From the NCBI GenBank assembly GCA_021199475.1, contig JAJQHZ010000075.1:1-41002 (forward strand): 41,002 nt of DNA, written 5' to 3'. The stretch comes from Lachnospiraceae bacterium. Lineage in GTDB: Bacteria; Bacillota; Clostridia; Lachnospirales; Lachnospiraceae. Position 1 is the stretch's first letter; each line of letters begins with the position of its first letter. The translations under genes were made by a program, and so were the position numbers. The notes under the pieces were generated by a model. It had not been told where the DNA came from, made no database searches, and worked only from the letters and a program-made list of their open reading frames with translations. Of the stretch, positions 1,721 to 17,452 are shown in pieces.

Positions 1721-1738
1721 TTTTTCACTCCATAACAT

Positions 1739-1808
1739 GTCTGACATCATTCATGATGTCAGACGCAGGCCGTGCCCATCGCCGACTGGCGATTCTGCAT
1801 GGCACGGC
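1739..1808. repeat. Dispersed nested stem-loop repeat, copy A
   Basis: Stem 1 is a perfect 11-bp inverted repeat, arms 1739-1749 and 1754-1764 (GTCTGACATCA/TGATGTCAGAC). Stem 2 has outer arms GCCGTGCC 1769-1776 and GGCACGGC 1801-1808, enclosing a perfect inner hairpin ATCGCC/GGCGAT at 1778-1793. The same architecture with different but compensating bases recurs at 1822-1893, 6696-6741, 17330-17367 and 17373-17452. It lies just upstream of the MATE start. Confidence 0.8.
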
Positions 1809-1821
1809 TCACTATTATAAT

Positions 1822-1898
1822 GTCTGACATTATTTATAATGTCAGACGTAAACCGCGCCTATTGTGCGAAGCAGAATCTCCAAACGGCGCGGTTCTCC
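1822..1898. repeat. Dispersed nested stem-loop repeat, copy B
   Basis: Stem 1 is a perfect 11-bp inverted repeat, arms 1822-1832 and 1837-1847 (GTCTGACATTA/TAATGTCAGAC), four bases of loop. Stem 2 has outer arms ACCGCGCC 1852-1859 and GGCGCGGT 1886-1893, with an imperfect inner hairpin ATTGTGC/GCAGAAT. It follows the amidohydrolase stop codon directly and is tandem with copy A in the same orientation. Confidence 0.8.
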
Positions 1899-1908
1899 GC
1901 CTCATATG

Positions 1909-2943
1909 TTAAATTCCGTAAAGTGTTTCCGCATTTTTGTGCAGCATCATCTCTTTCTCCTCGTCCGTCACATCCAACGCGCGCACAAATGCCGGCCCTT
2001 CCGTCAGCCATTCTTTGCGTACCGGATAAGAGGTCCCCCAGATGATGTGATCTGCGCCGAGCACCTTCACCGCACACTCGAGCTGCGTCTTTCCCCAGGG
2101 CTGCGCGTGGGACATCTCAAAGTAGATGTGTTCACGGAACCGGGCCGCCGTTTCACCGCCATCGGACTTGAACCGGCTGACATCCTCCGTCTTTTTCGCC
2201 TGCTGCGGGAACATCATATTTGCGATAGCGAAGAAACCGCCGCCGAGCATAGAATGAACCATTTTGATATTGGGATATCTCACAAACAGGTCGCTGAACA
2301 CCTCGCGGCCTACCGCAAGTCCCTGATCCACGCAGCGTCCGTAGGAACGTCTTACATTATTATAGGCAAGGAACGACTGCGGCTCGGCGGGAATCGGCGT
2401 ATGATGGACATACACATTCATCTGCAGCTCGTTGACCTTTGCAAAGAATGCGGAGAAACGTTCATCGTCCAGGTATGCGTCGCCATAATGTGCGCTCAGC
2501 TGTACAGCCGTCATGCCCAGTTCCTTTTTACAGCGCTCCAGTTCTGCAAGGCTCTCCTCTGTCCCGTAAGGCGGAACGACCGCCAGCGGAATCAGCCGGC
2601 CATTGCTCTTCTTTCCATATTCAGCCATTCCGTCATTGAACAGTCGGCAAAAGTCCAGATCCATCCACTCATGGCAGCCGGGTACCTTCAGCACCGCCTT
2701 GTCCACGCCCGCCGCGTCCAGGTCGGCAAGCATGCTCTCCAGCACATAGTCTCCCTGTACATAGTTGAGGTTCGGGCTGCCCTCCGGCTTTTCCAGAACG
2801 ACCTGCTTTTTCCCATTTGTCCCCGGAATCTCCTCACAGCGGCCGTGCCAGTCAAACTTTACTTCTCCCAAAAATTTTTCCATCAGAGCATCGTCTGTAA
2901 ACAGCTGCTCCGGAACCCAGTATAAATTCGCGTCAATAACCAT
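1909..2943 (-). CDS. Amidohydrolase-fold (Amidohydro_2) protein, metal ligands altered
   Basis: A TIM-barrel protein of about 344 aa resembling the Amidohydro_2 group, which includes ACMSD-type decarboxylases and lactone or amide hydrolases. The family normally begins with a metal-binding HxH just after strand 1 and ends with a GSDYP-type aspartate. Here the start reads MVIDANLYWVP and the late motif reads IIWGTSYP, so the first two histidines and the late aspartate appear to be missing. Histidines remain in NVYVHHTP and KMVHSMLGGG. The start at 2943 is set by GGAGGTGAG seven bases upstream; a longer frame to 2994 lacks a ribosome site. The gene follows the MBL-fold hydrolase gene, probably in one transcript. 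It may be a metal-independent member or a non-enzyme; the fold is fairly sure, the reaction is not. Confidence 0.75.
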   Translation of the reverse strand: MVIDANLYWVPEQLFTDDALMEKFLGEVKFDWHGRCEEIPGTNGKKQVVLEKPEGSPNLNYVQGDYVLESMLADLDAAGVDKAVLKVPGCHEWMDLDFCRLFNDGMAEYGKKSNGRLIPLAVVPPYGTEESLAELERCKKELGMTAVQLSAHYGDAYLDDERFSAFFAKVNELQMNVYVHHTPIPAEPQSFLAYNNVRRSYGRCVDQGLAVGREVFSDLFVRYPNIKMVHSMLGGGFFAIANMMFPQQAKKTEDVSRFKSDGGETAARFREHIYFEMSHAQPWGKTQLECAVKVLGADHIIWGTSYPVRKEWLTEGPAFVRALDVTDEEKEMMLHKNAETLYGI

Positions 2944-3097
2944 TTTCTCACCTCCACGGCAGTTAATCACTCGTTCTTCCCTGCCGTTTTTCACTTTTCC
3001 ATACCTGCATCTCTAAAATGCGTTCTTATGTGATCTTTCCTATATCTTTCTATACAAAAATCCCAAACCGGTTTCTCACAGAAGCCACATATATTCT

Positions 3098-4003
3098 TTA
3101 CACCAGAGTCTTGTCATAGGAAAACTCGTATCCCTTGTAGACAAAATCGACCATGTTCGGATTCTCCCTGAAAAATCCATCCTTTGGAATATCCTCAATA
3201 TGCGGTCTCTGGCAGTCGTAAATCTCATGTCCCTGCGCGTCATATTCCGCCTTCATCGGCGGCATCGGATTTTCGTCCTTCTTCGGCTTTTCGAGCTCTT
3301 CCCCGGCCAAAGCCTTGCACGCAGCCTCATAAAAAGCTTCCAGGCAGCCGTCCGCCACCTTTCCTGAACCGCCGCAATAGATGGTGTCAAACTCTGCGCG
3401 GTGCGCCATCAGCTTCTCCAGGCTGTCCTTCCATTTGCGCAGAGAGCCATTCAGCGTTTTTCCGTGCGGCATCAGCTCATCACCGATAAAAAGCATCCGG
3501 TATTTCCGGTCCAGAATCGCGATTCCATCCTCGGTGTGATCGCCGATCCGGAAGATTTCCAGTTCACGGCCCGCAAGCGGAATGAGATCGCCGTCGCCCA
3601 CGGCTGTTTTCGGATAATCCGGCGCCGGGAATGAGATGCCGTCAAAGCTCGGATAGGGGATGGACGCCCGCGTCAGCGCTTCCTCTCCCATATAGGCCAT
3701 ATCAAAATAAAAATTATTCGCGGTATGATCAAAATGATGATGCGTATTAATTACCCACGGCACTGGCTTTTGACAAAGTGTTTCCAGGTACTCCCTCAAA
3801 TTTCCCGCACCATATCCGGTGTCAATCGATACGCCGACATCCTCTCCGACCAGCAGGTAATGATAATCCCCTGAACTCATGATCTGCCAGGTGGCTTCAT
3901 TCAGCTGCGTAGCCTCATAATGGGGAACATCCATCGGCAGCAGTGCCCCATCCTTGTAGCGAATCAGTGTATCATGTTTTGGAGAAAAATCGATTCGTTC
4001 CAT
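3098..4003 (-). CDS. Metallo-beta-lactamase fold hydrolase
   Basis: A cytoplasmic binuclear-metal hydrolase of 301 aa with no signal peptide. The defining motif THHHFDH is at residues 87-93. Further metal ligands are likely His156 in GDHTEDG and Asp175 in FIGDEL. This set is typical of broad MBL-fold hydrolases acting on esters, thioesters, lactones or phosphodiesters. The C-terminal 90 residues are proline- and lysine-rich (around EKPKKDENPMPP) and may form a cap over the active site. AGAGG lies six bases before the ATG at 4003. It sits between a small membrane protein gene and the amidohydrolase gene, downstream of an Opp-type importer and an esterase. This suggests stepwise hydrolysis of an imported compound. 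Substrate unknown. Confidence 0.85.
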   Translation of the reverse strand: MERIDFSPKHDTLIRYKDGALLPMDVPHYEATQLNEATWQIMSSGDYHYLLVGEDVGVSIDTGYGAGNLREYLETLCQKPVPWVINTHHHFDHTANNFYFDMAYMGEEALTRASIPYPSFDGISFPAPDYPKTAVGDGDLIPLAGRELEIFRIGDHTEDGIAILDRKYRMLFIGDELMPHGKTLNGSLRKWKDSLEKLMAHRAEFDTIYCGGSGKVADGCLEAFYEAACKALAGEELEKPKKDENPMPPMKAEYDAQGHEIYDCQRPHIEDIPKDGFFRENPNMVDFVYKGYEFSYDKTLV

Positions 4004-4070
4004 CGCAAACCTCTTTTCAAGTGTTATTTTAATAAATATTAATGCAGTTCCTTATTGTTTTAAAAAGTGT

Positions 4071-4733
4071 TCAGTCATATGTAATCTGCTGCGCCTCACG
4101 CGGTGCTTCTTCCGTGCTCAGAAAGCTGTCATAGACAACACGGCTCTCGAGCAGATAAACCAGAAGGCAGAGAATGGCGCACACCAGCAAAACCAGCGTA
4201 CAGCCAAGCTCCCCGGCGAGATTTTCTCCGGAAGATAAAAACGTATAGGCCAACGTTCCCACAGCTGTTAGCGCCTGCGCAACAAACGTATATCGGGAGG
4301 ATTTTATTACCGCATCCACATAGCGGTACTCACCGAGTGTCATATTTTTCCCCGCAGTCAGGAAATTGAACAGCGACCATCCCATCCAGAACAGGCACGC
4401 CACGGTGAGCGCTTCCGGCGCGGCGACGTACCAGCACGCATTGCTTCCTAGCGGCCGCGTGACCGCGAGAAAGTACAGGACGAACGAGAGAAGCCAGGCC
4501 GCGGCATAGCCCGCATGATAGATGCGCCGCTGCCTGTCGCTCAGCTTCGCGGCGTGATAGACCCCTGTATAGACTCTTTTCAGACGCATCTTCCCTTTTT
4601 CGTCTGCTTCGCGATATTCCGACCAGCCTTCAAAATAGCGATGGTATCCCTTGCTGTGAAATTCGGCCCGCTCCGGCATCCCGCCGGTGCGCCGCATTTC
4701 GCGCTCCTGTACATAGTCCTTCAGAGACCGCAT
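4071..4733 (-). CDS. Small multi-pass membrane protein, unknown function
   Basis: I do not recognise this 220-aa protein. The first 75 residues are charged and aromatic (KGYHRYFEGWSEYREADEKG) and look cytoplasmic. Four hydrophobic segments follow, near residues 80-95, 105-125, 150-165 and 175-195, and then an acidic tail. The start at 4733 has GGAG eight bases upstream; an in-frame GTG at 4742 is possible but overlaps that site. It lies 79 bases after the next gene, also a small membrane protein, in the same direction. The pair may work together. No catalytic motif is visible. Confidence 0.7.
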   Translation of the reverse strand: MRSLKDYVQEREMRRTGGMPERAEFHSKGYHRYFEGWSEYREADEKGKMRLKRVYTGVYHAAKLSDRQRRIYHAGYAAAWLLSFVLYFLAVTRPLGSNACWYVAAPEALTVACLFWMGWSLFNFLTAGKNMTLGEYRYVDAVIKSSRYTFVAQALTAVGTLAYTFLSSGENLAGELGCTLVLLVCAILCLLVYLLESRVVYDSFLSTEEAPREAQQITYD

Positions 4734-4812
4734 ATTCCTCACTCCGTTCCTTCCATCCCGCAGTCCAGTGTTTTATATCGTTCGCTTCTGCGCATCCGCA
4801 TACAGAGACGAT

Positions 4813-5358
4813 TTACTCCAGATAAGAAGCATACTCGATTTCCTGCAAATCCAGTCCTTCCAGATATTCCTGAAAAGCACTGTAAAAGTTCTGCGTTACC
4901 TCCGCGCTTTCATAGTTAAACACCACAACCGTCTCGTCCGTCTCAAGCAGGATATAATCCCCCTTCACCTTTTTCAGGGCAAACAGATAATACTCGCCCC
5001 ACGCGTCGTTCTTCCAAAGGCCGCTTCGTACACGGCGGTCGTCGGTTCCCTCTGACAATGTGCCGAAATCAACCTCGTCGCAGAGTTCCATCCGCGTAAT
5101 GTCCGCGTAAGAAATCGTAATCTCATCCTCTGTGTAGCTGTTGATCAGGATGGAATCCTCTCCCGGCTCGATGTAAACAGACTCACTCAGGCTGTTTCGG
5201 AAGAAAATCAGGTATCCGAGTACGATAATCAAAAAAATCAGAATCGAATAATTCCGGTGTCTGGTAAAGCCGTCAAATACCGAGCTTCCCGTCTTTGCGG
5301 TATGCTTTTCTTTTGCTTCCGAAGTTTTCTTATCCGCATTTTCCGATGTTTTTTTCAT
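4813..5358 (-). CDS. Single-pass membrane protein, possible PH-like domain
   Basis: A protein of about 181 aa with a charged, lysine- and glutamate-rich N-terminus and one membrane helix (YSILIFLIIVLGYLIFF). The C-terminal region of about 115 residues is soluble and beta-rich. Its pattern SVYIEPGEDSILINSYTE followed by ITISYADITRMEL resembles bacterial PH-like domains, which is only a suggestion. I prefer the ATG at 5358 with AGGTGA eight bases upstream; a GTG at 5370 is the alternative. It begins 30 bases after the esterase stop, so the two are surely co-transcribed, and it precedes another small membrane protein. Function unknown. Confidence 0.7.
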   Translation of the reverse strand: MKKTSENADKKTSEAKEKHTAKTGSSVFDGFTRHRNYSILIFLIIVLGYLIFFRNSLSESVYIEPGEDSILINSYTEDEITISYADITRMELCDEVDFGTLSEGTDDRRVRSGLWKNDAWGEYYLFALKKVKGDYILLETDETVVVFNYESAEVTQNFYSAFQEYLEGLDLQEIEYASYLE

Positions 5359-5388
5359 CCGTCCGGTCACCTGTCCTTTCCTTCCCGG

Positions 5389-6570
5389 TTATTTGTGCTG
5401 CGCGAACAGCCACTCATGAATGGCATCGATGGAATACGCGTGTCTCCACGTGTTGATGTGATGCTCGCCGCCGTTGCTGTGCCAGCCGTCTGCGACTGTC
5501 GTAATGTCATATGGAGTATAAATAATATTTGCTCCGGTTGCAAGCAGCTTTCGTGTCTTTTCGGTATAAACCTCCTGCGGCTCGCCGGTTCTCCATACCT
5601 CGCGGGCAATCTTCGCACCGTCCTTCTCCAGCTCGACCAGAATCTGGTTCATGCCCGGAAACGCCTTTGCGTCGCCCTGCGAGTTGATCATCCAGAATTT
5701 GTGATTCTCAAGCCCGGCACCATGGAACTGCCGTTCATCCCACTGACCTGCTACCAGGAAGGATGCCGCGAACAGATCCGGATACCGGAGGTTCAGCACC
5801 ATCGACGACATACAGCCCATCGACTGCCCGGTCGTGTACAGCCGGTTCTTGTCAATCGAGTATTCGGAGACAATATGATCCAGAAGACGTTTCCCGGTCT
5901 CCAGGCGGTCGTCCACGCTCCAGTCATCCTCCACAATGCTCGGCGGAGCGTACTGCGGAGCCAGCACAAAGCACTCATGCTTTTCCTGCGCCTCTTCTGT
6001 CATCCAGACCAGTGCCCCAACGCCCTGAGTCAGTGTACATTCCGGCTGTTCACCGCACACGGCTGCGTCATGAATGAACTGCACCAGAGGATAGCTCTTC
6101 GTTGGATCATAGGTTCTCGGGATAAACAGGTTATACGCCAGTCCTTCAAAAACGCCCTGTGCAAATTCTTCTACCAGAAGATTTTTTACGCCTGTATTTG
6201 CATCCGCGCCCGCAGCCGGAATCGTAGTTCCATCCTTCGCTATGAGCGGTTCAGCCTGCTCGACCGAGAGGCTCGCCGGAACGACCCTGGCGCCCTGTCC
6301 CTGCCACGGATGCCCCGGAAAATAGGTCGCTGCCGCTTCATCTTCTGCCGAAAGCCCCAGCACAACAAAAGGTCCGTCGCCCTCCTGTCCATCTGCATTT
6401 TTGCAAACCGAAGCGGATATGATGGAACGTCCCTCCACCTGGAACGCTTCCGGTTTTACAGTCCCTGCAGCAAACACGCAGTCATACTCCAGAATTGCTT
6501 TCGTACATTTCTGTCCTTCCGGCAGGACTTCCGTTACCGCAGTAATTTCTTTTATATGTGAATTTTTCAT
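5389..6570 (-). CDS. Serine esterase, alpha/beta hydrolase with N-terminal beta domain
   Basis: A 393-aa alpha/beta hydrolase related to PHB-depolymerase and feruloyl-esterase-like enzymes. Residues 1 to about 115 form a beta-rich N-terminal domain like the Ig-like domain of similar esterases. The hydrolase domain follows from about residue 125. The nucleophile motif GQSMG is at 248-252 with Ser250. Likely partners are Asp300 (NSQGD) and a histidine at 370-371 (GGEHHINTW). There is no signal peptide, so it acts in the cytoplasm, presumably on material brought in by the importer genes upstream. A GGGAGAGA ribosome site precedes the ATG at 6570. It is separated from the binding-protein gene by about 250 bases that include repeat copy C. 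Cleavage of an ester in an imported compound is the best guess. Confidence 0.85.
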   Translation of the reverse strand: MKNSHIKEITAVTEVLPEGQKCTKAILEYDCVFAAGTVKPEAFQVEGRSIISASVCKNADGQEGDGPFVVLGLSAEDEAAATYFPGHPWQGQGARVVPASLSVEQAEPLIAKDGTTIPAAGADANTGVKNLLVEEFAQGVFEGLAYNLFIPRTYDPTKSYPLVQFIHDAAVCGEQPECTLTQGVGALVWMTEEAQEKHECFVLAPQYAPPSIVEDDWSVDDRLETGKRLLDHIVSEYSIDKNRLYTTGQSMGCMSSMVLNLRYPDLFAASFLVAGQWDERQFHGAGLENHKFWMINSQGDAKAFPGMNQILVELEKDGAKIAREVWRTGEPQEVYTEKTRKLLATGANIIYTPYDITTVADGWHSNGGEHHINTWRHAYSIDAIHEWLFAQHK

Positions 6571-6695
6571 TGATTTCTCTTCTCTCCCATTTTTTACCGC
6601 TCATAGTGACAGATGCTGCAAAAGGGGCCGGCTGCCCTGTAGGAAGGTTCGCCAGCCCCCGAAATCTCTGCTCGTGGCTTTCTGCTTTATCGGCA

Positions 6696-6741
6696 CCACG
6701 CCCATTGTGCAAGTCACAATCTATAAATGGCGTGGCTCTCC
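6696..6741. repeat. Dispersed nested stem-loop repeat, copy C
   Basis: Outer arms CCACGCC 6696-6702 and GGCGTGG 6729-6735 enclose a perfect inner hairpin ATTGTG 6704-6709/CACAAT 6715-6720. CTCTCC follows, as in copies D and E. The first stem seen in copies A, B and E is absent. It lies in the 250-base spacer between the binding-protein stop at 6824 and the esterase start at 6570. Confidence 0.75.
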
Positions 6742-6823
6742 GCTTCTAGTCCGTCCTGCTGTCTTGTCAGAAAGCCATTTCCTGTGGTTTGCCAATGCAG
6801 TCCAAAGTCAGAGCATTCCATTT

Positions 6824-8455
6824 TTAGAATTCATTGTCTACATAGATGCAGCCGCCCGGAATCAGGTAATCCTGGAAGGTCCAGCAAGCTGTCTCGATGT
6901 CATTTGTCACTACGTTGCTGGTCAGCTGTGAGAACAGGCCATATCCATAATAGTGCTCGATGATGTACTCATGGAATGCGTTTACGTTCTCTTCTGTATC
7001 ACCGCCAACTACGATGCAGGCATTCAGAAGATCCTGGATGGTCTGATCATCGCTGTTGCAGATCGTGTAAGTTACAGAGTGGAATGCTTCTGAATACCAT
7101 CTCTGCCATACGATTGGAAGATAATCATCTGACGCCATCTTGGTGATAATCAGATCATACTCGCCAGCCACCTGCTTGGAGTCGGTAATCGTATCAGACT
7201 CAGACTCGATCGCGCAGTTGATACCGATGTTCTGAAGGATCGCAACGATTGCAGTCGCTACGTTCTCCAGCATGGACTCATTGTTCAGGATGATGGTAAG
7301 CGTAGAGCCGTCATAGCTGGACTGCGCCAGGTATTCCATCGCCAGCTCCAGGTTCTGCTCATGATAGTAGTTCTCTTCGGTCTCCCAGTCGCTGTTGTAG
7401 TCGATGAACTTCATGTTGCCAAGTGTAGAGGAAACAACATAGCCGTTGGAACCGGAAGCCAGCGCCAGCTGCTCGCCGTCCAGTGCATAGAAGATAGCCG
7501 CACGCAGATTCTCATCCGCGCAGATGCTGCTGTTCTCATCGCAGTTCGCAAACAGAGCGATAGTCAGGTTGTCCAGATACTGATCGATGGTATAATTATC
7601 AGAATAAGCGCCGCCCTCCTGGAACTGAGCGATATCCGTTGCAGATACATAGCTGGAGAAATCAAGCTCGCCGGTCTGCAGACCAACTGAGTTCTGGGAA
7701 GCCTCTGCTACAACCTTGTAATAAATTGTCTGAACATTCGCGCACTGACGGATGGTCTGATGATCGGTGCCCTCTGCCCAGTAGTCATCCTTTGCTTCCA
7801 GTGTGATGGACGCACCAGACTGGTAATCACTTACATAGTACGGACCGGTGCCGCACGGGTCGGTCGCCAGATTATGGTCAATCGCTGCCTGCTCACAGTA
7901 TACATACGGCTGTGCCAGAATCGCGCTCAGATCGCTGAGTCCATCCAGCGGCGCATTCATGATCAGGTCTACGGTGTAATCATCCACAACCTCACCATGA
8001 TCATACTTCGCGATGTCGCCGCTCATACGGTTTCCTGCCGCAAGAAGGGTATCATAAGAATAGATTACATCGGATGCATGAAGCTCATTTCCGTCCGAGT
8101 CATAAACACCTTCATAGAGATATACACGGTAGGTCGTATCATCGATCTGCTCGTAGCTGCTGGCCACGGAGCCTACCAGACCGCCGCCGATGCCGTTGAT
8201 TTCAAACAGGCGCTCATAAACGCTGTATTTCCACATCGATCCGCCGCTGTCCACCGCTTCTTCCGGTGACAGGTTGCCCGGCTCAGTATCCATCGCGATG
8301 GAGATGGACTCATGCTTTACCGTTGCGGAATTTGCGGTTCCTTCATAGGTCGCGTCATGAACATACGTTGCGTCATCATCCGCAAATGCCACTGAGCTGA
8401 AGCTGCCGCATACGGTAACGGCTGCCATCAATGCTGCTAAAACTTTTTTCTTCAT
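6824..8455 (-). CDS. Extracytoplasmic solute-binding protein of an Opp/Dpp-type importer (SBP_bac_5)
   Basis: A 543-aa family-5 binding protein that captures a peptide, opine, glycoside or similar ligand for the adjacent ABC importer. A signal peptide is clear: basic start, hydrophobic core, and a likely cut after AFA at residue 25. There is no canonical lipobox; the only cysteine, in AVTVCG, lacks the small residue normally at -1. Most Gram-positive binding proteins are lipid-anchored, so this one may be anchored differently. The mature part has family features such as the segment AYDTLLAAGNR and repeated aromatic ligand-cleft residues. AAAGGAGGA stands seven bases before the ATG. It is the fifth gene after the two permeases and two ATPases, behind a spacer with a terminator-like hairpin. 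Confidence 0.9.
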   Translation of the reverse strand: MKKKVLAALMAAVTVCGSFSSVAFADDDATYVHDATYEGTANSATVKHESISIAMDTEPGNLSPEEAVDSGGSMWKYSVYERLFEINGIGGGLVGSVASSYEQIDDTTYRVYLYEGVYDSDGNELHASDVIYSYDTLLAAGNRMSGDIAKYDHGEVVDDYTVDLIMNAPLDGLSDLSAILAQPYVYCEQAAIDHNLATDPCGTGPYYVSDYQSGASITLEAKDDYWAEGTDHQTIRQCANVQTIYYKVVAEASQNSVGLQTGELDFSSYVSATDIAQFQEGGAYSDNYTIDQYLDNLTIALFANCDENSSICADENLRAAIFYALDGEQLALASGSNGYVVSSTLGNMKFIDYNSDWETEENYYHEQNLELAMEYLAQSSYDGSTLTIILNNESMLENVATAIVAILQNIGINCAIESESDTITDSKQVAGEYDLIITKMASDDYLPIVWQRWYSEAFHSVTYTICNSDDQTIQDLLNACIVVGGDTEENVNAFHEYIIEHYYGYGLFSQLTSNVVTNDIETACWTFQDYLIPGGCIYVDNEF

Positions 8456-8534
8456 GGGAATCCTCCTTTAAGATAAATTCTGGTAACTGTTCTTTCACCC
8501 GACAGTCACCGGTTAAAGTAACACTTCTTTATGC

Positions 8535-8557
8535 AAAACTCTGACCGCCCGTCAGAG
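8535..8557 (-). terminator. Terminator-like hairpin between the ATPase and binding-protein genes
   Basis: On the minus strand a 7-bp stem, CTCTGAC/GTCAGAG (arms 8551-8557 and 8539-8545), has a GGGCG loop and is followed by TTTT. It could end or attenuate transcripts from the four upstream importer genes. A second inverted repeat, CCGGTAT 8586-8592/ATACCGG 8611-8617, precedes it. A separate promoter for the binding protein is not obvious. Confidence 0.5.
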
Positions 8558-8643
8558 ATCAGCATGCTCTGATTGTTAATAGCTTCCGGTATCATTTCGA
8601 TTACATATCAATACCGGCTGCATTCCGGTTCCGGAAGAGGATG

Positions 8644-9618: not shown

Positions 9619-10595
9619 TTCTTCTCTCCCTCCTGCTTAAAGTCCATGACACACCGTGTAAAGTGACCGGGAGCCGTCTCCTGATACGGAATGGTTCCGA
9701 AGCATTTTTCGGTCGCATGCGGGCATCTCGGATTGAACGGGCAGCCCTTCGGAAGGTTGGTCGGATCCGGCGGCATCCCGTCAATCGGCTTCAGACGCTC
9801 CGCACCCTCGTTCATCTCCGGAAGAGAGCCGAACAGACCGAGTGTATACGGATGCTGCGGATGGTCGAACAGCTCGACCTTTTCGGCATACTCTACGATC
9901 TGGCCCGCATAGATGACCGCCACATTGTCGCAAGTCTGCGCCACAACGCCCAGATCATGGGTGATCAGAATCATGGAAGTATTCAGCTTCTTCTTTAAGT
10001 CATTGATCATCTCAAGCACCTGCGCCTGAATGGTCACATCCAGCGCGGTGGTCGGCTCATCCGCCAGCAGCAGCTCCGGATCGCAGGCCAGTGCCATCGC
10101 GATGACAACTCTCTGTTTCATACCGCCGGAGAACTGATGCGGATATTCCACATACCGCTCGCCCGGGATGCCTACCATCTCCAGGATTTCTACGACACGC
10201 TTATGCCCTTCCTCCTTGCTGTAGCTGTTGTGCAGCATCAGTACCTCGAGGATCTGGTCGCCAATGGTCATCAGCGGGTTCAGCGCCGTCATTGGATCCT
10301 GGAAAATCATCGCAATTTTGTCGCCGCGGATTTTCAGCATCTCATTCTCCGAAAGCTCCACCAGATTCTGTCCGTCCAGAATAATCTCGCCGCCCTTAAA
10401 GATTGCCGGCGGATTTGGCAGGATCCGCAGAATTGCACGCGCGATCGTCGTCTTGCCTGCACCGGTCTCACCGACCAGACCAAGCGTTTCCCCCTTTTCC
10501 AGATCGAACGATACGCCGTTCACTGCATGCACGATGTCTCCGCCGGAGGTGTATACAACTTCTACATTTTTTAATTGAAGAAATTTCTCACTCAT
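9615..10595 (-). CDS. ABC importer ATP-binding protein, OppD/DppD type
   Basis: The first ATPase of the same importer, 326 aa. Walker A GETGAGKTT is at 42-50, signature FSGGMKQR at 155-162, Walker B ELLLADE at 174-180, and the D-loop TALD follows. A C-terminal cysteine-rich Opp-type domain (GCPFNPRCPHATEKC) is present. Two ATGs stand in tandem at 10598 and 10595; the second has better spacing (seven bases) from the AGGGGG ribosome site. It starts 12 bases after the permease stop and overlaps the next ATPase by four bases, so this is one tight operon. Confidence 0.92.
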   Translation of the reverse strand: MSEKFLQLKNVEVVYTSGGDIVHAVNGVSFDLEKGETLGLVGETGAGKTTIARAILRILPNPPAIFKGGEIILDGQNLVELSENEMLKIRGDKIAMIFQDPMTALNPLMTIGDQILEVLMLHNSYSKEEGHKRVVEILEMVGIPGERYVEYPHQFSGGMKQRVVIAMALACDPELLLADEPTTALDVTIQAQVLEMINDLKKKLNTSMILITHDLGVVAQTCDNVAVIYAGQIVEYAEKVELFDHPQHPYTLGLFGSLPEMNEGAERLKPIDGMPPDPTNLPKGCPFNPRCPHATEKCFGTIPYQETAPGHFTRCVMDFKQEGEKK

Positions 10596-10607
10596 CATTC
10601 TACCCCC

Positions 10608-11474
10608 TTATTTGCGAAGCTTCGGATCCAGTGCGTCGCGCAGGCCGTCACCCATCAGGTTGATTGCAAGGGTGGTAAAGCCGATCGCGAGACCCGGGAA
10701 CAGCAGCAGGTACGGATAAGACATTACGTAGTTCTTGCCTGCGGAAAGCATTGCGCCCCACTCCGGGTTCGGCGGCTGTACGCCCAGTCCTATGTAGGAA
10801 AGTGTCGCTGCCTGTGTGATCGTGGCACCGATTCCCATCGTTGTACCAACAATCGTCGGCGAGATGACGTTTGGAAGCAGATGCCGGAACATAATCGAAA
10901 GCTTCGAGCAGTTCATGGCCTCCGCCGCTTCCAGATACTCCTTCGTCCTCTCTGCAAGGATCTGTCCGCGCGTCATCCGGGCGCCGTTCGGGATCGCTCC
11001 GATCGACAGTGCGAGGATTGTGTTAAAGAATCCGGAGCCCAGTGCGGTCGAAATCACGATGCACAGCAACGTACCCGGAATTGCGGTCCAGATATCGCAG
11101 AAACGCATCAGCAGGTTCTCCACCTGACCGCCAAAGTAACCGGCGATGACGCCCAGGCCGGTGCCGCCAACCGCCGCAAACAGCGATCCGATGATACCAA
11201 GCGCCAGAGAATACCGGCCGCCGTAGAGCAGTCTCGACCACTGATCGCGTCCAAGGTTATCCGTGCCGCACCAGTGATCTGCGTTTGGCTTGCAAAACAT
11301 ATTTGTCATATCCATCTCGTTCGGTGAATACTTTGTAAACAGCGGCTCTCCCACGCACAGCACTACAATGATGACCAGGAGAATTCCGCCAAGCTTGGCT
11401 GTCGGGGTCTCAAAAATACGGCTGAATGTATCCATAAAACGAGATTTTTTCTTCTTTTTCTTAGCTTCTGCCAT
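10608..11474 (-). CDS. ABC importer permease, OppC/DppC type
   Basis: A 288-aa inner-membrane permease of the binding-protein-dependent transport family. After a lysine-rich start (KKKKKKS) comes one helix (LGGILLVIIVVLCVGEPLF), a short outer region with HWCGTDNLGRDQWSRLLYGG typical of OppC/DppC, and five more helices. The EAA coupling loop is EYLEAAEAMNCSKLSIMFRH, which contacts the ATPases. The end DALDPKLRK is typical for the family. GGGGGTGA lies upstream of the ATG. The gap to the partner permease is 13 bases. Confidence 0.93.
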   Translation of the reverse strand: MAEAKKKKKKSRFMDTFSRIFETPTAKLGGILLVIIVVLCVGEPLFTKYSPNEMDMTNMFCKPNADHWCGTDNLGRDQWSRLLYGGRYSLALGIIGSLFAAVGGTGLGVIAGYFGGQVENLLMRFCDIWTAIPGTLLCIVISTALGSGFFNTILALSIGAIPNGARMTRGQILAERTKEYLEAAEAMNCSKLSIMFRHLLPNVISPTIVGTTMGIGATITQAATLSYIGLGVQPPNPEWGAMLSAGKNYVMSYPYLLLFPGLAIGFTTLAINLMGDGLRDALDPKLRK

Positions 11475-11487
11475 AATTTTTCACCCC

Positions 11488-12423
11488 CTACTTTCCATTT
11501 GCGTACTGCGCTTTGATTCTCGGATCTACATAGGCATAAACGATATCCATCAGCAGAATCGACAGCGCCGAGAACAGTGCCAGAATGATCGTTGCTCCGC
11601 GGATAACCGGATAATCTCTGGTATTGATTCCGTTCAGCAGGTACAGACCGCAGCCGGGAATCGTGAAAATCGTCTCAATAATCGCGGTACCGCCGACGAT
11701 TTTTCCAAGGCCGCCGATGACCATCGTGATGATTGGCATCAGCGCATTCGGGAACATATGCTTCCAGATAACAATGTTCTCTTTCTGGCCCTTCGCCCGC
11801 GCCGTCACGACGAAGTCCGCGCGGAACACCTCCAGCATAGACGAACGCGTCTGTCTCGCATTGGAAGCAATCCCTCCGATACCAGCCGCGATAACCGGCA
11901 TAACGAAGCATTTCCAGCTTGTCGTGCCCATCGCCGGAAGCCATCCCAGCTTTACTGAGAAGAGCACGATCATCATCAGCGCTACCCAGAAATCCGGAAC
12001 CGACACCAGCACCATCGAGATTGCCATGGACAGGTTATCCTGCCATTTGCTCTGATGCACCGCTGCGAACACACCCAGCGGAATACCGATGACGACCTGA
12101 ATGATCATGGCCAGTCCGCCCACGATAATCGTGACCGGAAGACGTGAAAACAGCTCGCCGGATACCGAAATGTTGTAGGACCACGACGTACCGAAATCCA
12201 GCCGGAGCACCTGCGAATAATAGGTGAGCAGCTGAACGACATATGGCTTATCCAGGCCCAGGCTTACTCGCTTGGCTTCAATCTCCGCGTCTGTCGCCGT
12301 CGAACCCAGAAGCGTTCTCGCCGGATCGCCGGGTATGAAATACGTAATCGTAAAAATAACGAATGTCACACCGAGCATGATCACGATCGTCCAGAGCAGA
12401 CGTTTTAACACATACTTGTACAT
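11488..12423 (-). CDS. ABC importer permease, OppB/DppB type
   Basis: A 311-aa inner-membrane permease and the first gene of the importer operon. The N-terminal signature MYKYVLKRLLWTIVIMLGVT and the early FIPGDPAR segment are hallmarks of OppB/DppB. About six helices follow. The EAA loop is VVTARAKGQKENIVIWKH. The end VDPRIKAQYANGK is typical. AAAGGAGAGGG precedes the ATG. A promoter-like pair lies about 40-70 bases upstream, so the operon is probably led from here. Gene order is permease B, permease C, ATPase D, ATPase F, binding protein, with the binding protein last. Confidence 0.93.
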   Translation of the reverse strand: MYKYVLKRLLWTIVIMLGVTFVIFTITYFIPGDPARTLLGSTATDAEIEAKRVSLGLDKPYVVQLLTYYSQVLRLDFGTSWSYNISVSGELFSRLPVTIIVGGLAMIIQVVIGIPLGVFAAVHQSKWQDNLSMAISMVLVSVPDFWVALMMIVLFSVKLGWLPAMGTTSWKCFVMPVIAAGIGGIASNARQTRSSMLEVFRADFVVTARAKGQKENIVIWKHMFPNALMPIITMVIGGLGKIVGGTAIIETIFTIPGCGLYLLNGINTRDYPVIRGATIILALFSALSILLMDIVYAYVDPRIKAQYANGK

Positions 12424-12465
12424 TTAGTTACCCTCTCCTTTCTTTGTTTCTTTATTTATAGTGCA

Positions 12466-12495
12466 ATCATACAATAATGCTTCTTTGCAAATCAA
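12466..12495 (-). promoter_or_regulatory. Candidate promoter of the Opp-type operon
   Basis: On the minus strand TTGATT (12490-12495) is followed after 18 bases by TATGAT (12466-12471), about 43 bases before the permease ATG. About 30 bases further upstream lies TTGCATTAATCC (12525-12536), which resembles sequence near two LysR genes in this window. Confidence 0.5.
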
Positions 12496-12567
12496 TCCGA
12501 GTTGCGGTCACTTTGACCCAAAATTTGCATTAATCCGTTCTTCTTTTGGTGATTTTTGTGTCTTCAC

Positions 12568-12590
12568 ACACCGGTCTCCATTTCCGGTGT
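12568..12590 (-). terminator. Weak stem-loop after the ceramidase-like gene
   Basis: Arms ACACCGG 12568-12574 and CCGGTGT 12584-12590 form a 7-bp hairpin with a 9-base loop, 38 bases after the hydrolase stop. There is no U-run, so termination is only possible. It would separate the hydrolase from the importer operon. Confidence 0.35.
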
Positions 12591-12627
12591 CGAAAGCTTT
12601 GCACTACTGCCGGTGTCAGGTTGCTGC

Positions 12628-13914
12628 TTATCCGGCCAGGCCCTCTAGCAGTTCCACGCTCTTTTCCGCGAGCATCTCCGCCGCGCCTCTTCCAAACATG
12701 GAGTTCATCGCCTCATAGCCAAACCGCTCATAGGCCCTGTCATCCGCCATATATTTCGCCGCGCCGTTCACCATTGTGCAGACCAGCGTATGCTGAAACG
12801 GAGAGTCCTTGCGGATCGTCAGACCCGTGACACAGCACAGCTCCGGCTGTACGCCGACCAGCGCCAGATTTCCGATACGGATCGCCTCCACAGAGACTTC
12901 CCGCTCCCCATCCGGCCTCCAGTCATAGCTGCGGACCGGCTTCAGATTCCGCAGCTCGCGCTCGATCTCTTTCGACGGAACCGTCAGGCTTGCTTTCCCT
13001 ATACTAATCATTGGAGATGCTTTGGAATACTCGGTTGCCTTTACTGCCTCCTGCACCTGCACAGAAAGCTGTCCTGCCAGACGATCACAAATTTCAAACC
13101 CTTTTTCATGCCGGTCTGTACGTATCCGCTCCCCATTCTCAAACGTTTCTGATACCGATTTTTCTACAGGAGCCTGATCGCCCGCTGCCCCGATGAGATA
13201 CAGAGCGACCGTATCTCCTCCGAGCGATTCCTCGACCATCCGGCACATCGTTCCTGCCACATCCGAGGTCACCGCTTTTCCGCCCCCGGTCAGCTCGGAC
13301 TGATCCAGCACCGAAGACTGCATTCCAAAATGGCTCATGACTGCGATCAGCTTCCCATCCGTATCGCGGAAGCTGACGACGGACACCGTCCGGTCCGTCG
13401 GCCCCAGGCCATTGGTATCCACCCACCAGCCTTCAGACAGCTCCACGTCCCGGTTCGACACGATGTCGCAAAATCCGGTCTTACAGCCCATCACTGCTTC
13501 CCGTTTCGTATTCATCGCTGCCGCAGCCGCATCGACTGCCGCTTTTTGCAGCGCGCCGCGGTACTGATTCCGGAGAGCAATCATCTCTTCTGTCCCAAGC
13601 CGCTCATCCGGCAGAAGATGCGGGGACGAGAACGAATGCGTCGCTCAGACCCAGATGTTTTCCTTCGGAACACCCGTCCGATCCGCAATCTGCTCCCGGA
13701 TGCACCGGATTTCCGGCTCCGGCATCGAGGTGATTTCCAGAGAAACCAGAAGCACCGTCTCATTGCCTGCGATGGCGACTGCCCTGGCATGGATCGGGTC
13801 GTGAATGGTCTTAAAATTCTCAGCTGCCAGATACGCTTCCGGAATCTCAATCACCGCTTTCCCGGCGCCCACCAAAAGCTCCGGTTCAAAACTATCGTTT
13901 TTCATTTCTGACAT
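12628..13914 (-). pseudogene. Neutral/alkaline ceramidase-like hydrolase interrupted by an in-frame TGA
   Basis: The reading frame from ATG 13914 (AAGGAG upstream) to the TAA at 12628 is open except for one TGA at 13645-13647, after residue 89. Across the stop the frame continues without shift: ...PKENIWV, stop, then ATHSFSSPHLLPDERL. In the neutral/alkaline non-lysosomal ceramidase family the matching place reads like SATHTHSGP, so a serine codon TCA changed to TGA explains the break. The rest looks intact to its usual C-terminal helical end, about 428 codons. The family cleaves the amide bond of ceramides; related bacterial proteins of this size often have unknown substrates. It is divergent from a LysR gene that also has one premature stop. 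Options are recent decay, a base-call error, or read-through. The fragment 12628-13584 alone lacks the N-terminal metal-binding part. Confidence 0.75.
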
Positions 13915-14218
13915 ACTCTTCTCCTTCCTTACTAATATGCTTCTGCAGAGTCCTCTCCTGACGCTACTTCGAATGATGGTCTTCAAAATACCGCCATTCA
14001 AAGCACATCCCGGGTTCTTCTGCGTTTCAGGTACCGTCTTTCTGTCTCATCCGCATTGTGCAGATTTCAGAAAAATCTGCCTGTTTCCACCAGTATATTC
14101 CCTTCAAAATGCACAGGCAATCCGAGTTTCCGGCCGCTAATCCCGCATTTTGCATAAATTCCTTTGTATTTTGTGAAATTTTGTGGTAAACTTGGATGAA
14201 AAAGAAGGAGGAGTTCTC
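13915..14218. promoter_or_regulatory. Divergent control region between the ceramidase-like gene and LysR
   Basis: About 300 bases separate two divergent start codons. A perfect 8-bp inverted repeat GCAGATTT 14060-14067/AAATCTGC 14073-14080 with a 5-base loop is a candidate operator. GCATAAATTC at 14152-14161 resembles motifs at 12525-12536 and 26286-26295. No tRNA or open frame of note is seen. Confidence 0.45.
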
Positions 14219-15103
14219 TTGGAAATCGGATATTTAAATGAATTTATAAAGCTTGCGGAAACCGGAAATTACCTGGAAGCGGCGGACGCGCTGTATATCT
14301 CACAGTCGACATTGTCCCGCCACATTCAGAATATTGAAAATGATCTGGGCGTACAGCTGTTCAACCGCACGACCAGACGGGTAGAATTGAATGAGTTTGG
14401 GAAGACCTTTCTCCCCTATGCGAAGCAGATCACCTCGCTGAGGACGGACTACACGCATGCGCTCTCCAACCAGATCAAGCATCAGAAAAATAATATTACG
14501 ATTGGCTGTATTCCCACCATGACCCAATATTATATCTCTGAGATCCTCTCTCGTTTTCAAAAAGAGCATCCGGATCTCATGCTGAATATTATTGGCGCAG
14601 ACTCCACCAGACTGGCCGGTCTTCTGAAAACAGACCAGTGTGATTTTGCGTTCATGCGCCTGCCGCAGAACTAGCAGATTGAGTATCAGAGTTACCCGTA
14701 TTTTACCGACCATATGGTCGCAGTTGTCCCCAAAGACCACCCGCTCGCCTCCTCTAAGAATCTCTCTCTGAGTCAGCTGAAGGCCGAGCCGTTCCTGTTT
14801 CTGGCGGAGGGCTCCATGATGTACACCTTTGCGCTGGAGGCCTGTCAGTCTGCCGGTTTCACTCCTCATATCCGTTTCACCGGCCACCGGGCAGAAAACA
14901 TTATCGATCTGGCCAGACGCGGCATGGGGGTCGGGCTGCTCTCCAAACAGCCGCTGACTGAGATCGACACGGAGGGCGTCTGCCTGATCGACATCGTGCC
15001 CCAGTTCACCACGAAAATCGTTCTGGTATGCAAATCAGAACAGTCGCTCTCCCCTACGGCGCGGCAGTTCCTGAAGTTCTATAAGTCGCTGGGCATTAAT
15101 TAA
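14219..15103 (+). pseudogene. LysR-family regulator interrupted by an in-frame TAG
   Basis: I place the start at TTG 14219 because AAGGAGGAG stands just before it and the product then begins with the usual LysR first residues, MEIGYLNEFIKLAETGNYLE. The winged helix-turn-helix is at about 1-60 (AADALYISQSTLSRHI). The frame is open to 15103 except for one TAG at 14672-14674, after codon 151, inside the ligand-binding domain. Thirteen sense codons in the same frame (QIEYQSYPYFTDH) then lead into the intact remainder, which shows MVAVVPKDHPLA and GMGVGLLSKQPL. Total length, 294 codons, is normal for LysR. The N-terminal piece could still bind DNA without sensing its effector. It probably controlled the divergent ceramidase-like gene and perhaps the Opp operon. 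Confidence 0.8.
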
Positions 15104-15266
15104 GAAACCTGAGAACGATACTGCTCCAGATAGCGAACACCTGACCGGATCCGGTCAGGTGTTCCTTAAATGCAAATGGGGCCGGATCACTTCCCTGTTT
15201 CCATCCCGTTCCAATTCGCAGCGGATCCAGCTCCGGTGCCAATTCCCGCATTTTCTGACTTTCCAT
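15096..15266 (-). pseudogene. Remnant of an IlvD/Edd-type dehydratase start
   Basis: GGAGGG lies five bases before an ATG at 15266, followed by MESQKMRELAPELDPLRIGT and GWK. This is very like the first residues of dihydroxy-acid or sugar-acid dehydratases of the IlvD/Edd family, proteins of about 550-600 aa. After GWK the similarity stops at once and the frame runs through a palindromic terminator, ending at 15096 after 56 codons. The body of the gene seems to have been deleted, leaving its ribosome site, first codons and terminator. The family match is from memory of the motif, so moderate. It sits between two convergent genes. Confidence 0.45.
15135..15164. terminator. Perfect 30-base palindrome, bidirectional terminator
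   Basis: Arms of 13 bases (GAACACCTGACCG and its complement) meet around GATC with no mismatch. It lies 32 bases after the LysR stop on the plus strand and downstream of the ABC exporter gene on the minus strand. There is only a short T-rich tail (TTCCTTAAA) on the plus side. It overlaps the dehydratase remnant frame. Confidence 0.7.
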
Positions 15267-15425
15267 AATGCCCTCCAACTCCTTTCTGCACCCTGTCCGC
15301 CTGATCCAACGGTCGGGCGATCCTGCTGCGTGCTTCTTACATATGCAGAACATACAGTCTTTGCACTGCATGATCTTTATGCCGCATCGTTATTTTTGTC
15401 GCATATTCTTTCCATTGCATCTTTT

Positions 15426-17249
15426 TTACGTCGCAAAGCCCGCGTACTGCGTCATGTAAAGCTCGTAGTATTTCCCCTTCCTCGCCAGCAGCTCCTCGTG
15501 GCTGCCGCTCTCGGCAATGGTGCCGTGATCCATCACTACGATAATGTCCGAGTCGCGGATGGTCGAGAGCCGGTGCGCGATGACAATGCTTGTACGGTTC
15601 TGCATGATGTGCTGCATGGCGTCCTGAATGGCTTTCTCCGTGCGGGTATCCACATTCGAGGTCGCTTCATCCAGAATCAGAATCTCCGGATCCATGGCAA
15701 ACGCCCGCGCAATCGCAAGAAGCTGACGCTGCCCCTGGCTGATGGTTTCTCCTGCCCCGGTGAGCATCGTTTCCAGGCCATCTGGCAGAAGACGAATCAT
15801 CTCTGAGCAATGACTCATCTCCACCGCACTGTTCAGATCCTCGTCCTTCGCCGCCTCATTTCCATATTTCAGATTCGCACGTATCGTGTTGGAAAAGAGC
15901 ACGGTATCCTGCAGCACGATTGCCACATTTTTCCGCAGGCTGGCGCGTGCAATCTCATCCAGCTTCTGATCATTGATGCGGATCGTGCCACTGTCCGGGT
16001 CATAGAACCGCATCATCAGATTCACGACCGTCGTCTTGCCCGAGCCGGTCGCACCGACCAGCGCGACTTTTTTCCCGGACGGCACCGTCAGGGAAAAATC
16101 TCGGATGACCGGATGCCCCGGCTCATAGGAAAAGTTCACATGGTCGAAGGTGACGGACGCCTCCGCGTGCGCGGGGTTTAACGGTTCTCCGCTCTGGTCT
16201 TCATCCTCTTCGTCCATGACGACAAATACGCGCTCCGCGCCCGCTATGGCGGTCTGCAGCTGGCCGTAGACCTGCGCGATCTCGTTGATTGGGCGGGAAA
16301 ACTGCTTCGCGTACACAATAAATGCGGAAATCACCCCAACCGAAATCAGACCATGGATGGAGAAGTATCCGCCAAATGCCGCGATAATGACAAACCCAAT
16401 ATTCCCGATGCAGTTCATAATCGGACCCATGATGCCGCTGAAAATATCCGTGTGAATACCGGCCTTCGTCATCGCATCCGCCGTCTCACAAAAGGAATCT
16501 GTCGTGATCTCCTGATGATTATATGCGACCACGGTGCGATAGCCGGAAATCATCTCCTCGACCGTACCATTCAGCTCCCCGAGCAGCTGCTGTCTTGTTC
16601 TGGAATATTTCCGCACCTGTTTTGACAATATCGTCGTCGCGGCCACCGTGAGGATCACCGTCGCACAGCTCAAGAGCGCAAGCGGCACACAATACCAGAG
16701 CATAATCGCCACCGTTCCGATGATGGTCATCACACCGGAAAACAGAGACGGCAGCGACTGGGAGATTGTCGTGGAAATGTTTTCGATATCATTGGTCATG
16801 CGGCTCATCACATCGCCATGCGAGTGGACGTCGAGATAGCGGACCGGCAGGTCCATGACCTTGCCAAAAAAATCATTTCTCATACGGCCGACCACGCTCT
16901 GGGAAAGCTTTGCGCTGATCAGGCTCTGCAGCAGCTGGCACAGGCTGTACAGCAGGTAAACCGCCAGCATAAACAGAATCGTCCGGGACAGGATGCCTTC
17001 CTGCTCCCCTGCGATGATATCGATTGCCCTGCTCTGCAGACTCGGCGCGTACACACCGCAAATGGTGCCAAAAAGGACCACCGCCAGCATGGCCGCCACC
17101 ATAGATTTTTCCTCTGTGAAATAAGCGATAATCCGTTTCAGCGTGCCGCCCACATGTTCCGCGTGTTGTACTTCAGCAAAACGATCACGCCTGGTGTGGC
17201 CCGGAATATCCTGCCGCGAAGGCTGTTCCTGTTTCTTCTCCTCACTCAT
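15426..17249 (-). CDS. ABC exporter half-transporter, heterodimer partner with canonical catalytic Glu
   Basis: A fused membrane-plus-ATPase exporter subunit of about 607 aa. Residues 1-40 are hydrophilic; six helices follow to about 350, then the ATPase domain. Walker A is VGATGSGKTT, the Q-loop VLQDT, Walker B ILILDEATSNVD with the catalytic glutamate, and the H-loop IVIAHRLST. The signature is ISQGQRQL instead of LSGGQ. This deviation, with the Asp in the partner's Walker B, fits heterodimeric exporters such as TM287/288 that have one active and one degenerate ATP site. The start at MSEEKK (17249) is chosen over an upstream GTG at 17300 on family length; its ribosome site is modest. It is transcribed after its partner, across repeat copies D and E. 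Export of drugs, peptides or lipids is possible. Confidence 0.92.
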   Translation of the reverse strand: MSEEKKQEQPSRQDIPGHTRRDRFAEVQHAEHVGGTLKRIIAYFTEEKSMVAAMLAVVLFGTICGVYAPSLQSRAIDIIAGEQEGILSRTILFMLAVYLLYSLCQLLQSLISAKLSQSVVGRMRNDFFGKVMDLPVRYLDVHSHGDVMSRMTNDIENISTTISQSLPSLFSGVMTIIGTVAIMLWYCVPLALLSCATVILTVAATTILSKQVRKYSRTRQQLLGELNGTVEEMISGYRTVVAYNHQEITTDSFCETADAMTKAGIHTDIFSGIMGPIMNCIGNIGFVIIAAFGGYFSIHGLISVGVISAFIVYAKQFSRPINEIAQVYGQLQTAIAGAERVFVVMDEEDEDQSGEPLNPAHAEASVTFDHVNFSYEPGHPVIRDFSLTVPSGKKVALVGATGSGKTTVVNLMMRFYDPDSGTIRINDQKLDEIARASLRKNVAIVLQDTVLFSNTIRANLKYGNEAAKDEDLNSAVEMSHCSEMIRLLPDGLETMLTGAGETISQGQRQLLAIARAFAMDPEILILDEATSNVDTRTEKAIQDAMQHIMQNRTSIVIAHRLSTIRDSDIIVVMDHGTIAESGSHEELLARKGKYYELYMTQYAGFAT

Positions 17250-17329
17250 GCTCTTCTTTCTCTCCTCATATGCTGACTGCCTGCAAAAGACATGTTTCAC
17301 CTCTCGCCTGCACCTGTCAAAAGTGATTT

Positions 17330-17367
17330 ACCGCGCTATGCGCGATCTCTATATGGCGCGGCTCTCC
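17330..17367. repeat. Dispersed stem-loop repeat, short copy D
   Basis: ACCGCGC at about 17330-17336 faces GGCGCGG at 17355-17361, and CTCTCC follows, the same right edge as in copies C and E. An inner CGCGC/GCGCG pairing replaces the longer inner hairpin and stem 1 is missing. It lies in the spacer between the two exporter genes. Confidence 0.6.
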
Positions 17368-17372
17368 ATCCC

Positions 17373-17452
17373 ATGTCCGGCATCGCTTTTTGATGTCGGA
17401 CGAAGGCCGCGCCCATTGCGCTTTGCGCAATTTTTACATGGCGCGGCTCTCC
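17373..17452. repeat. Dispersed nested stem-loop repeat, copy E, overlapping a gene end
   Basis: Stem 1 is GTCCGGCATC 17375-17384/GATGTCGGAC 17392-17401 with one wobble pair. The outer arms of stem 2 are GCCGCGCC 17406-17413 and GGCGCGGC 17440-17447. The inner hairpin is perfect: ATTGCGC 17415-17421, loop TTT, GCGCAAT 17425-17431. The right edge supplies the stop codon and last few codons (ESRAM) of the ABC exporter gene ending at 17434. Confidence 0.85.

Follow-up and report, generated by a model that had tools for sequence, protein, structure and literature searches.

A dispersed nested palindromic repeat of Lachnospiraceae is probably a non-autonomous mobile element

We analysed a stretch of 41,002 nucleotides (the window) from contig JAJQHZ010000075.1 of a draft genome of a Lachnospiraceae bacterium, in which five places carry copies of one small palindromic element, three full (copies 1, 2 and 5) and two partial (copies 3 and 4). 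An earlier reading of the letters alone (the sequence-only reading) had described five stem-loop places of one plan and one orientation. The arms and loops are found in the sequence as described, and a covariance model of the element (R1, see below) places all five copies on the minus strand. Read on this strand, the unit of ~76 bp begins with GGAGA, followed by an outer stem enclosing an A-rich bulge and a stacked inner hairpin (the core), a linker CTNCGTC and a second hairpin (hairpin 2), for example as outer arm GCCGCGCC, bulge AT-nn-AAA, inner hairpin, outer arm GGCGCGGC, linker and hairpin 2. The 5' start of the core is GGAGAG or TGAAAG, and hairpin 2 terminates in GGACA. The linker is present in 179 of 218 distinct copies, its TC(C) pairs with the GGA of hairpin 2, and the two ends of the unit show no mutual pairing in folds. 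The CTCTCC run formerly taken as the terminus is present, but on the minus strand it is the element's 5' end GGAGAG; likewise, the supposed optional first hairpin exists, but it is the 3' hairpin 2, present in the full copies.

Copies 1 and 2 form a tandem pair. Copy 2 (1821..1898), the first of the two, lies 10 nt past the end of the gene at 1909-2943, and copy 1 (1738..1813), which starts with AGTGAG, stops 17 nt short of the start codon predicted for the next gene downstream (326-1720). The core of copy 1 (1769..1808) consists of an outer stem (1769-1776 with 1801-1808) and an inner hairpin (1778-1783 with 1788-1793), and its hairpin 2 spans 1739..1765. Copy 5 (17374..17452) is the best match to the model and overlaps the upstream gene at 17434-19170, supplying its stop codon TAA (17434-17436); its core (17406..17447) has an outer stem at 17406-17413 with 17440-17447 and an inner hairpin at 17415-17421 with 17425-17431, its linker (17401..17405) reads CTTCG on the minus strand, part of the conserved CTNCGTC, and its hairpin 2 spans 17375..17401. 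Copy 3 (6690..6741) comprises the core only and copy 4 (17328..17367; blastn E = 1.9e-6) a truncated core, both lacking hairpin 2. R1 gave E values of 3.4e-18, 4.1e-15 and 3.9e-14 for copies 5, 1 and 2, all three of which were among its training copies, and of 0.0035 and 0.0045 for copies 4 and 3, the latter a weak match. In single-sequence folding compared with shuffles, the full copies reached z = -5.7 to -6.2 on the plus and -5.4 to -7.1 on the minus strand, while the partial ones were barely or not above shuffles (plus/minus: 6684-6745, z = -1.8/-2.7; 17322-17371, z = -1.4/-0.3). Rfam covariance models gave 0 matches at the gathering threshold in the window, and 0 at E≤1 for window positions 1650-1960 and for one further locus (L291; contigs, loci and genomes are cited by their C, L and G numbers, G000 being this genome).

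R1 was built from 24 copies of this genome, three from the window and 21 from 18 other loci. It gave 135 matches in the draft genome at E≤1 and 121 at E≤0.001, training copies included, with 150 of 1640 first-look candidates scored; blastn with copy 5 hit 23 places. The element is thus dispersed and amplified in many copies, and the sequence-only reading was right in seeing a dispersed family of REP- or MITE-like character. Head-to-tail arrays occur as well (e.g. C117:40835-41077 and C82:4118-4275). Contigs C75 and C141 have two element loci in common, with identical flanks and distances to neighbours, which suggests redundancy in the draft assembly.

Covariation was evaluated on 98 loci fetched by an exact pattern, in which R1 finds 139 copies, 136 of them distinct, from other genomes; in every locus at least one copy had much of its outer stem set by the pattern, which hides change there. 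Among the 136 distinct copies, 90.6% of cells were paired, compared with 76.1% after shuffling, and the covariation score was 0.301 compared with 0.086 (0/500 shuffles as high). Changes on both sides were found in 18 of 23 pairs, with 392 such cells as against 103 in shuffles, and none of 500 shuffles was as high on any of five measures. When partners were slid by 1-3 columns, pairing fell from 90.6% to at most 47.5% and the score to at most 0.071. The inner helix, modelled only approximately, was 86.9% paired. The outer arms vary among seven genera and pair in most cases; in that alignment, 6 of 19 rows hold at least one non-standard pair, four of them via stem-length shifts. Pairing is thus retained as sequences change, and the covariation first noticed in the window remains significant with more copies aligned. 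In copy 2 of the window, the inner arms pair imperfectly. Pairing may be conserved because the folded single strand is what an enzyme or a host process recognises.

We surveyed 60 relatives, scoring at most 80 candidates per genome under stricter filters. At E≤1e-4, the element is carried by 12 of 36 genomes of the same genus, this one included, and by 0 of 24 genomes of other families of the order. Among 299 Lachnospiraceae genomes representing 298 genera, at least 7 were positive, this one included, a lower bound given that at most 16 candidates were scored per genome. The six other genera show the same plan with mostly different stems, and eight copies in G255, a genome of another genus, are identical over 80-82 bp. 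Of the 98 exact-pattern loci in a contig set of 84,980 species, 97 belong to Lachnospiraceae or to metagenome-assembled genomes of Clostridiales; the remaining one, from Variovorax (27.1 bits, GC content 0.76), looks like a chance match. Carriage by a virus or plasmid was considered and rejected: viral contigs gave 0 exact-pattern matches and plasmids no blastn match to copy 5, the phage collection lying outside the search. In a midpoint-rooted ileS tree of 24 genomes, the positives form one group (9 versus 15, support 100/100), their nearest negative neighbours being G017, G019 and G023. The tree holds 9 of the 12 positives and 15 of the 24 negatives, the rest having no ileS locus available; G060 and G062, whose element status was not tested, were omitted, and G019 and G032 fill less than half of the columns.

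Orthologous sites with and without the element were found both within and between genes. The filled protein of a recD2-like helicase reads KRMSEAVRESRAMQNRADGAMARPTSCTSDAGQGMEAKT and the empty one KRMSEATGMEAKT (+78 nt), and two empty copies occur in G032, a close relative. Two recD2-like genes of this genome (C14:5366 and C155:49416) share the position of the element; in the second, just 10 codons of open frame precede it. prfC carries the element near its N-terminus in G000 and G012 and is contiguous in G032, G060, G007 and G017; in G012 ATGAAAT flanks the element on both sides as a 7-bp direct repeat, and in G000 the frame runs through the element, with a later unusual start possible. Antisense elements add 87 nt to a DUF4186 gene (L143) relative to its empty orthologue and 81 nt to an RluA-family gene (L200), and an unnamed gene at L119 is longer by 84 nt, the last two lengths being taken from coordinates of high-scoring segment pairs. 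Compared with empty orthologues, the insertion is in frame in the recD2-like, prfC, DUF4186 and RluA-family genes. Open frames through a copy, with no empty comparison, were further seen in a GH43-like gene, RlmD, an EamA transporter, a metallo-beta-lactamase-fold gene, a ferredoxin-like gene (weak PNPOx match, 26.6 of 28.1 bits) and two AAA-ATPase-like readings, one with a Pfam match. In ileS of this genome the copy is part of an open frame, at a site whose length and sequence vary among relatives. A gene on C91, its frame cut by the locus end, scores best with isoleucine--tRNA ligase models of NCBIfam, all below cut-off (TIGR00392, 611.8 of 621.4 bits); its assignment as valS was rejected, valS models scoring lower. 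Counter to in-frame insertion, L197 has +83 nt that break a frame open in L140, and L134 has +79 nt, so that the in-frame state looks like an outcome of survival and not a mode of insertion. Between genes, the der spacer is filled in G012, with an 18-bp direct repeat, and empty in G013.

Direct repeats of variable length flank the element at some sites. From 224 copies we excluded 112 in array-like arrangement and 12 that were duplicates, lay at ends or contained N, and in the remaining 100 the mean flank similarity was 6.03, compared with 4.88 when permuted over all copies and 5.11 within start classes (standard deviation 0.11, 0/500); a score of at least 8 was reached by 18 copies versus 6.27 expected from within-class permutation. 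Examples measure 16 bp (C75:23667), 14 bp (L124, C123:65367), 12-13 bp (C155:1547) and 10 bp (C47:20904). By their first letters, 216 copies fall mainly into class A (GG, 108) and class B (TG, 89). With the element's first letters excluded, class B (36 copies) stays above chance (5.61 versus 4.73, 0/500). Its flank consensus is RTGATAYAA|TGAAAG, which we take to resemble an extended -10 box. As for a -35 box, agreement with TTGACA peaks at -28 (17-bp spacer) among 38 offsets, but at 1.93 versus ~1.5 the signal is weak and was not retained.

Some of these features would also be expected if replication slippage or template switching created and copied the palindromes with no dedicated mobiliser. 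Upstream of der (G000:C40:3150 = L090, L131, L136, L282 and L284), hairpin 2 is in several species composed of the native target and an inverted copy of this sequence, and at L180/L200 the allele without a core has kept hairpin 2 alone, which may be the scar of a loss. That hairpin 2 copies the target is true of der, but was rejected as a general rule, the excess elsewhere (23 versus 4.4 of 197 at a score of at least 9) being mostly array neighbours in the rows shown. The der site, the variable direct repeats, the tandem arrays and the lone hairpin 2 of an allele that is empty apart from it (L200 versus L180) speak for slippage, which alone does not account for identical copies at unlinked sites or for the conserved linker, and we consider it improbable as the full explanation.

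Positions relative to genes were counted using a purpose-built gene caller with a coding model (E, element; arrows, direction of neighbours). For this genome the count covered 89 of its 135 copies, 3 of which were at edges, with the distribution >E> 50, <E> 16, <E< 11, >E< 3 and inside genes 6; 135 copies from other genomes (26 at edges) were distributed as >E> 50, <E> 21, <E< 19, >E< 7 and inside genes 12. The downstream gene is thus co-directional in 66/80 and 71/97 scored copies, respectively, and placement between convergent genes is rare (3/80 and 7/97). A cruder open reading frame count of 88 copies gave a weaker orientation bias (>> 44, << 18, <> 15, >< 11). This scarcity between convergent genes speaks against terminator or attenuator hairpins, a reading suggested by the GC-rich stems between genes and by the inner hairpin of copy 5 (17415-17431), which with the following TTTTACATGG scores terminator-like on the plus strand. 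On the minus strand, which carries the neighbouring genes, there was no terminator-like match for any of the five copies in the window, and a scan found 15 in 19.5 kb versus 15.8 in shuffles; we regard this reading as very improbable.

The same counts bear on a cis-acting mRNA leader element, i.e. a stabiliser or translational control RNA selected by the host and spread by duplication. Co-directional downstream genes, the rarity of copies between convergent genes and the extended -10-like motif ahead of class B copies are in its favour. Within 5-30 nt of a start codon we found 20 copies versus 11.0 expected of 69 in this genome, 9 versus 4.8 of 15 in G255 and 3 versus 2.0 of 6 in G154, another genus; in G255 the distance to a start codon is 17-22 nt for 11 of 19 copies. 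However, the element in G255 faces the opposite way to the gene (20 copies, 1 at an edge: <E< 16, <E> 3; for comparison, the 6 copies of G154: >E> 4, <E> 1, >E< 1), so a strand-specific RNA function would differ between genera. Moreover, predicted genes contain 18 of the scored copies, 5 in antisense orientation, the genes hit are functionally unrelated, and there is no Rfam match. A primary role as mRNA stabiliser or undescribed structured RNA, also raised by the sequence-only reading, fits less well given the reversed orientation and the copies within coding frames, and we hold it to be unlikely.

A classical REP/BIME mobilised by a RAYT (a Y1 HUH transposase), with the enzyme now lost in some genomes, would account for REP-like copy number and clustering and for the G(T/C/A)AG that precedes the core hairpin on the other strand, resembling the GTAG tag of REPs. 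A single RAYT-like gene (C122:637-1239, L024; NF047646 67.3 bits, below the 80-bit cut-off), adjoining a gene with a CI/Cro-type helix-turn-helix domain, is present in this genome, as is a Y1 fragment (C150:2766-2903) ~2.9 kb from an element copy (C150:5833). The link to RAYT did not bear out: no element was found in the fetched C122 locus and no homologue of its gene at E≤1e-8 in the other 35 genomes of the genus. Y1_Tnp was not found in four positive genomes of the genus (G012, G027, G030 and G035, with G027 just 65% complete) and likewise not in 5 of the 6 genomes of other genera that bear the element (G154, G239, G255, G298 and G323), among them G255 with its eight identical copies. Within the genus, a Y1 match occurs in 8 of 12 positives and also in 11 of 28 others, 4 of which were not tested for the element. 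Conversely, 28 loci around Y1-type genes held 0 elements at E≤0.1; 10 of these loci come from positive genomes and cover 10 of the 14 Y1 matches of the positive same-genus genomes, with no element within 1.5 kb. Target duplications are, to our knowledge, not expected of IS200/IS605 transposition. RAYT or another Y1 enzyme was therefore rejected as the mobiliser, and this origin appears improbable to us.

Taken together, we favour, with a probability of roughly 0.7, a non-autonomous mobile palindromic repeat of REP/RPE/YPAL-like kind. A folded single strand would be recognised by a trans-acting enzyme or by a host repair or replication process. Insertion would be tolerated or favoured beside expression signals, i.e. 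a -10-like box for one class and the vicinity of Shine-Dalgarno sequences for part of the other; within genes mainly in-frame copies would persist, and effects on the mRNA leaders that hold many copies would be secondary. Several points weigh against it. No enzyme is tied to the element, in a search that covered Y1 transposases and no other transposase families. The direction, insertion rather than loss, rests on empty orthologues, transposition itself not having been observed. Many sites have no direct repeat or a very short one, and in class A (53 copies), with the element's first letters excluded, similarity barely exceeds chance (4.57 versus 4.27, 4/500), with 1 copy versus 1.19 expected at a score of at least 7. 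Closeness to start codons is not enriched in 80 intergenic copies of other genomes (7 versus 9.8), a set fetched by a pattern that may favour one class. Finally, fitting the covariation alignment to the model favours the structure, and template switching can make palindromes symmetric without selection. The weak class A repeats outside the first letters also make less likely a transcription-guided element, whose folded strand would enter DNA opened by expression, after -10 boxes or near Shine-Dalgarno sequences, copying part of the target, with a clade-specific mover unrelated to known REP transposases. We think this rather unlikely; if true, it would mean entry into transcribed leaders, and even reading frames, with little damage.

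The element resembles several known systems. YPAL (RU-2) of Yersinia is, according to the accessible text of PMC2229807, a small element of 168 bp with internal inverted repeats, variable target duplications of 3-26 bp, targets in or beside dyad symmetry and filled and empty sites. Our element shares the small palindromic form, the variable-length target duplications, the filled and empty sites and the dyad-symmetric targets, a likeness by description; YPAL differs in its length and in its bacteria, and that text makes no mention of a nested core with a CTNCGTC-linked hairpin or of in-frame coding copies. CGTC-tagged REPs, including RPE-4 and RPE-6 of Rickettsia, have CGTC beside a hairpin, no transposase found and genic copies coding 20-30 aa, in targets including tRNA synthetase, pseudouridine synthase and repair genes (PMC3733652, as far as its accessible part goes, with Firmicutes, the host phylum of our element, not named in the main text there). 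CGTC next to a hairpin, in-frame genic copies and similar target genes recur here. CGTC REPs are characterised by an unpaired tag, an 8-9 bp stem starting with AT and a CCA tail, and that paper reports positions at gene 3' ends, whereas our element adds a nested core in a 76-bp unit, pairs the TC(C) of CGTC(C) with GGA and leans to gene 5' ends. GTAG-type REP/BIMEs are comparable in having over 100 copies, and their tag may correspond to the other-strand G(T/C/A)AG of our element, which reads GAAG or GCAG in most same-genus copies (CTACGTC in 5/218) and GTAG in the copies seen from G255, G298, G311 and G323; they differ from the present two-part unit of ~76 bp, with its head-to-tail arrays and no linked RAYT found. 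Classical MITEs (Correia, ERIC, RUP) are also small, non-autonomous, intergenic and sometimes coding, but the ends of our element do not pair in folds, there is no fixed TA duplication and no parent transposon was identified, just Y1 having been searched. In CTNCGTC, a GTAG-type tag of the opposite strand seems to overlap a CGTC tag, so that two REP types may have fused into this unit. A second palindromic repeat (CTCGCCGGGnGGCAT plus a hairpin) occurs alone, in tandem and nested inside the element in two genera (L128:6336, L147:2091, L173:858, L156:5315, L057:2238 and L246:1622), and a third module (..GACCGGAGCGG..) also nests within it. We found no description of the family in Lachnospiraceae in a literature search that reached few subscription journals.

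The element is a genuine, clade-restricted and probably mobile palindromic repeat, a variant of the REP/RPE/YPAL kind with a possible preference for expression signals. How palindromes of RPE/CGTC type spread and enter genes harmlessly is left open in the accessible parts of PMC3733652 and PMC2229807. Here, one clade offers more than 100 copies in one genome, dozens in relatives, and filled and empty sites between species. As the positives form one ileS clade, a dedicated mobiliser, if any, would be expected among the genes of this clade that its neighbours lack. For genome annotation, coding insertions of ~26-29 aa in such genomes call for caution.

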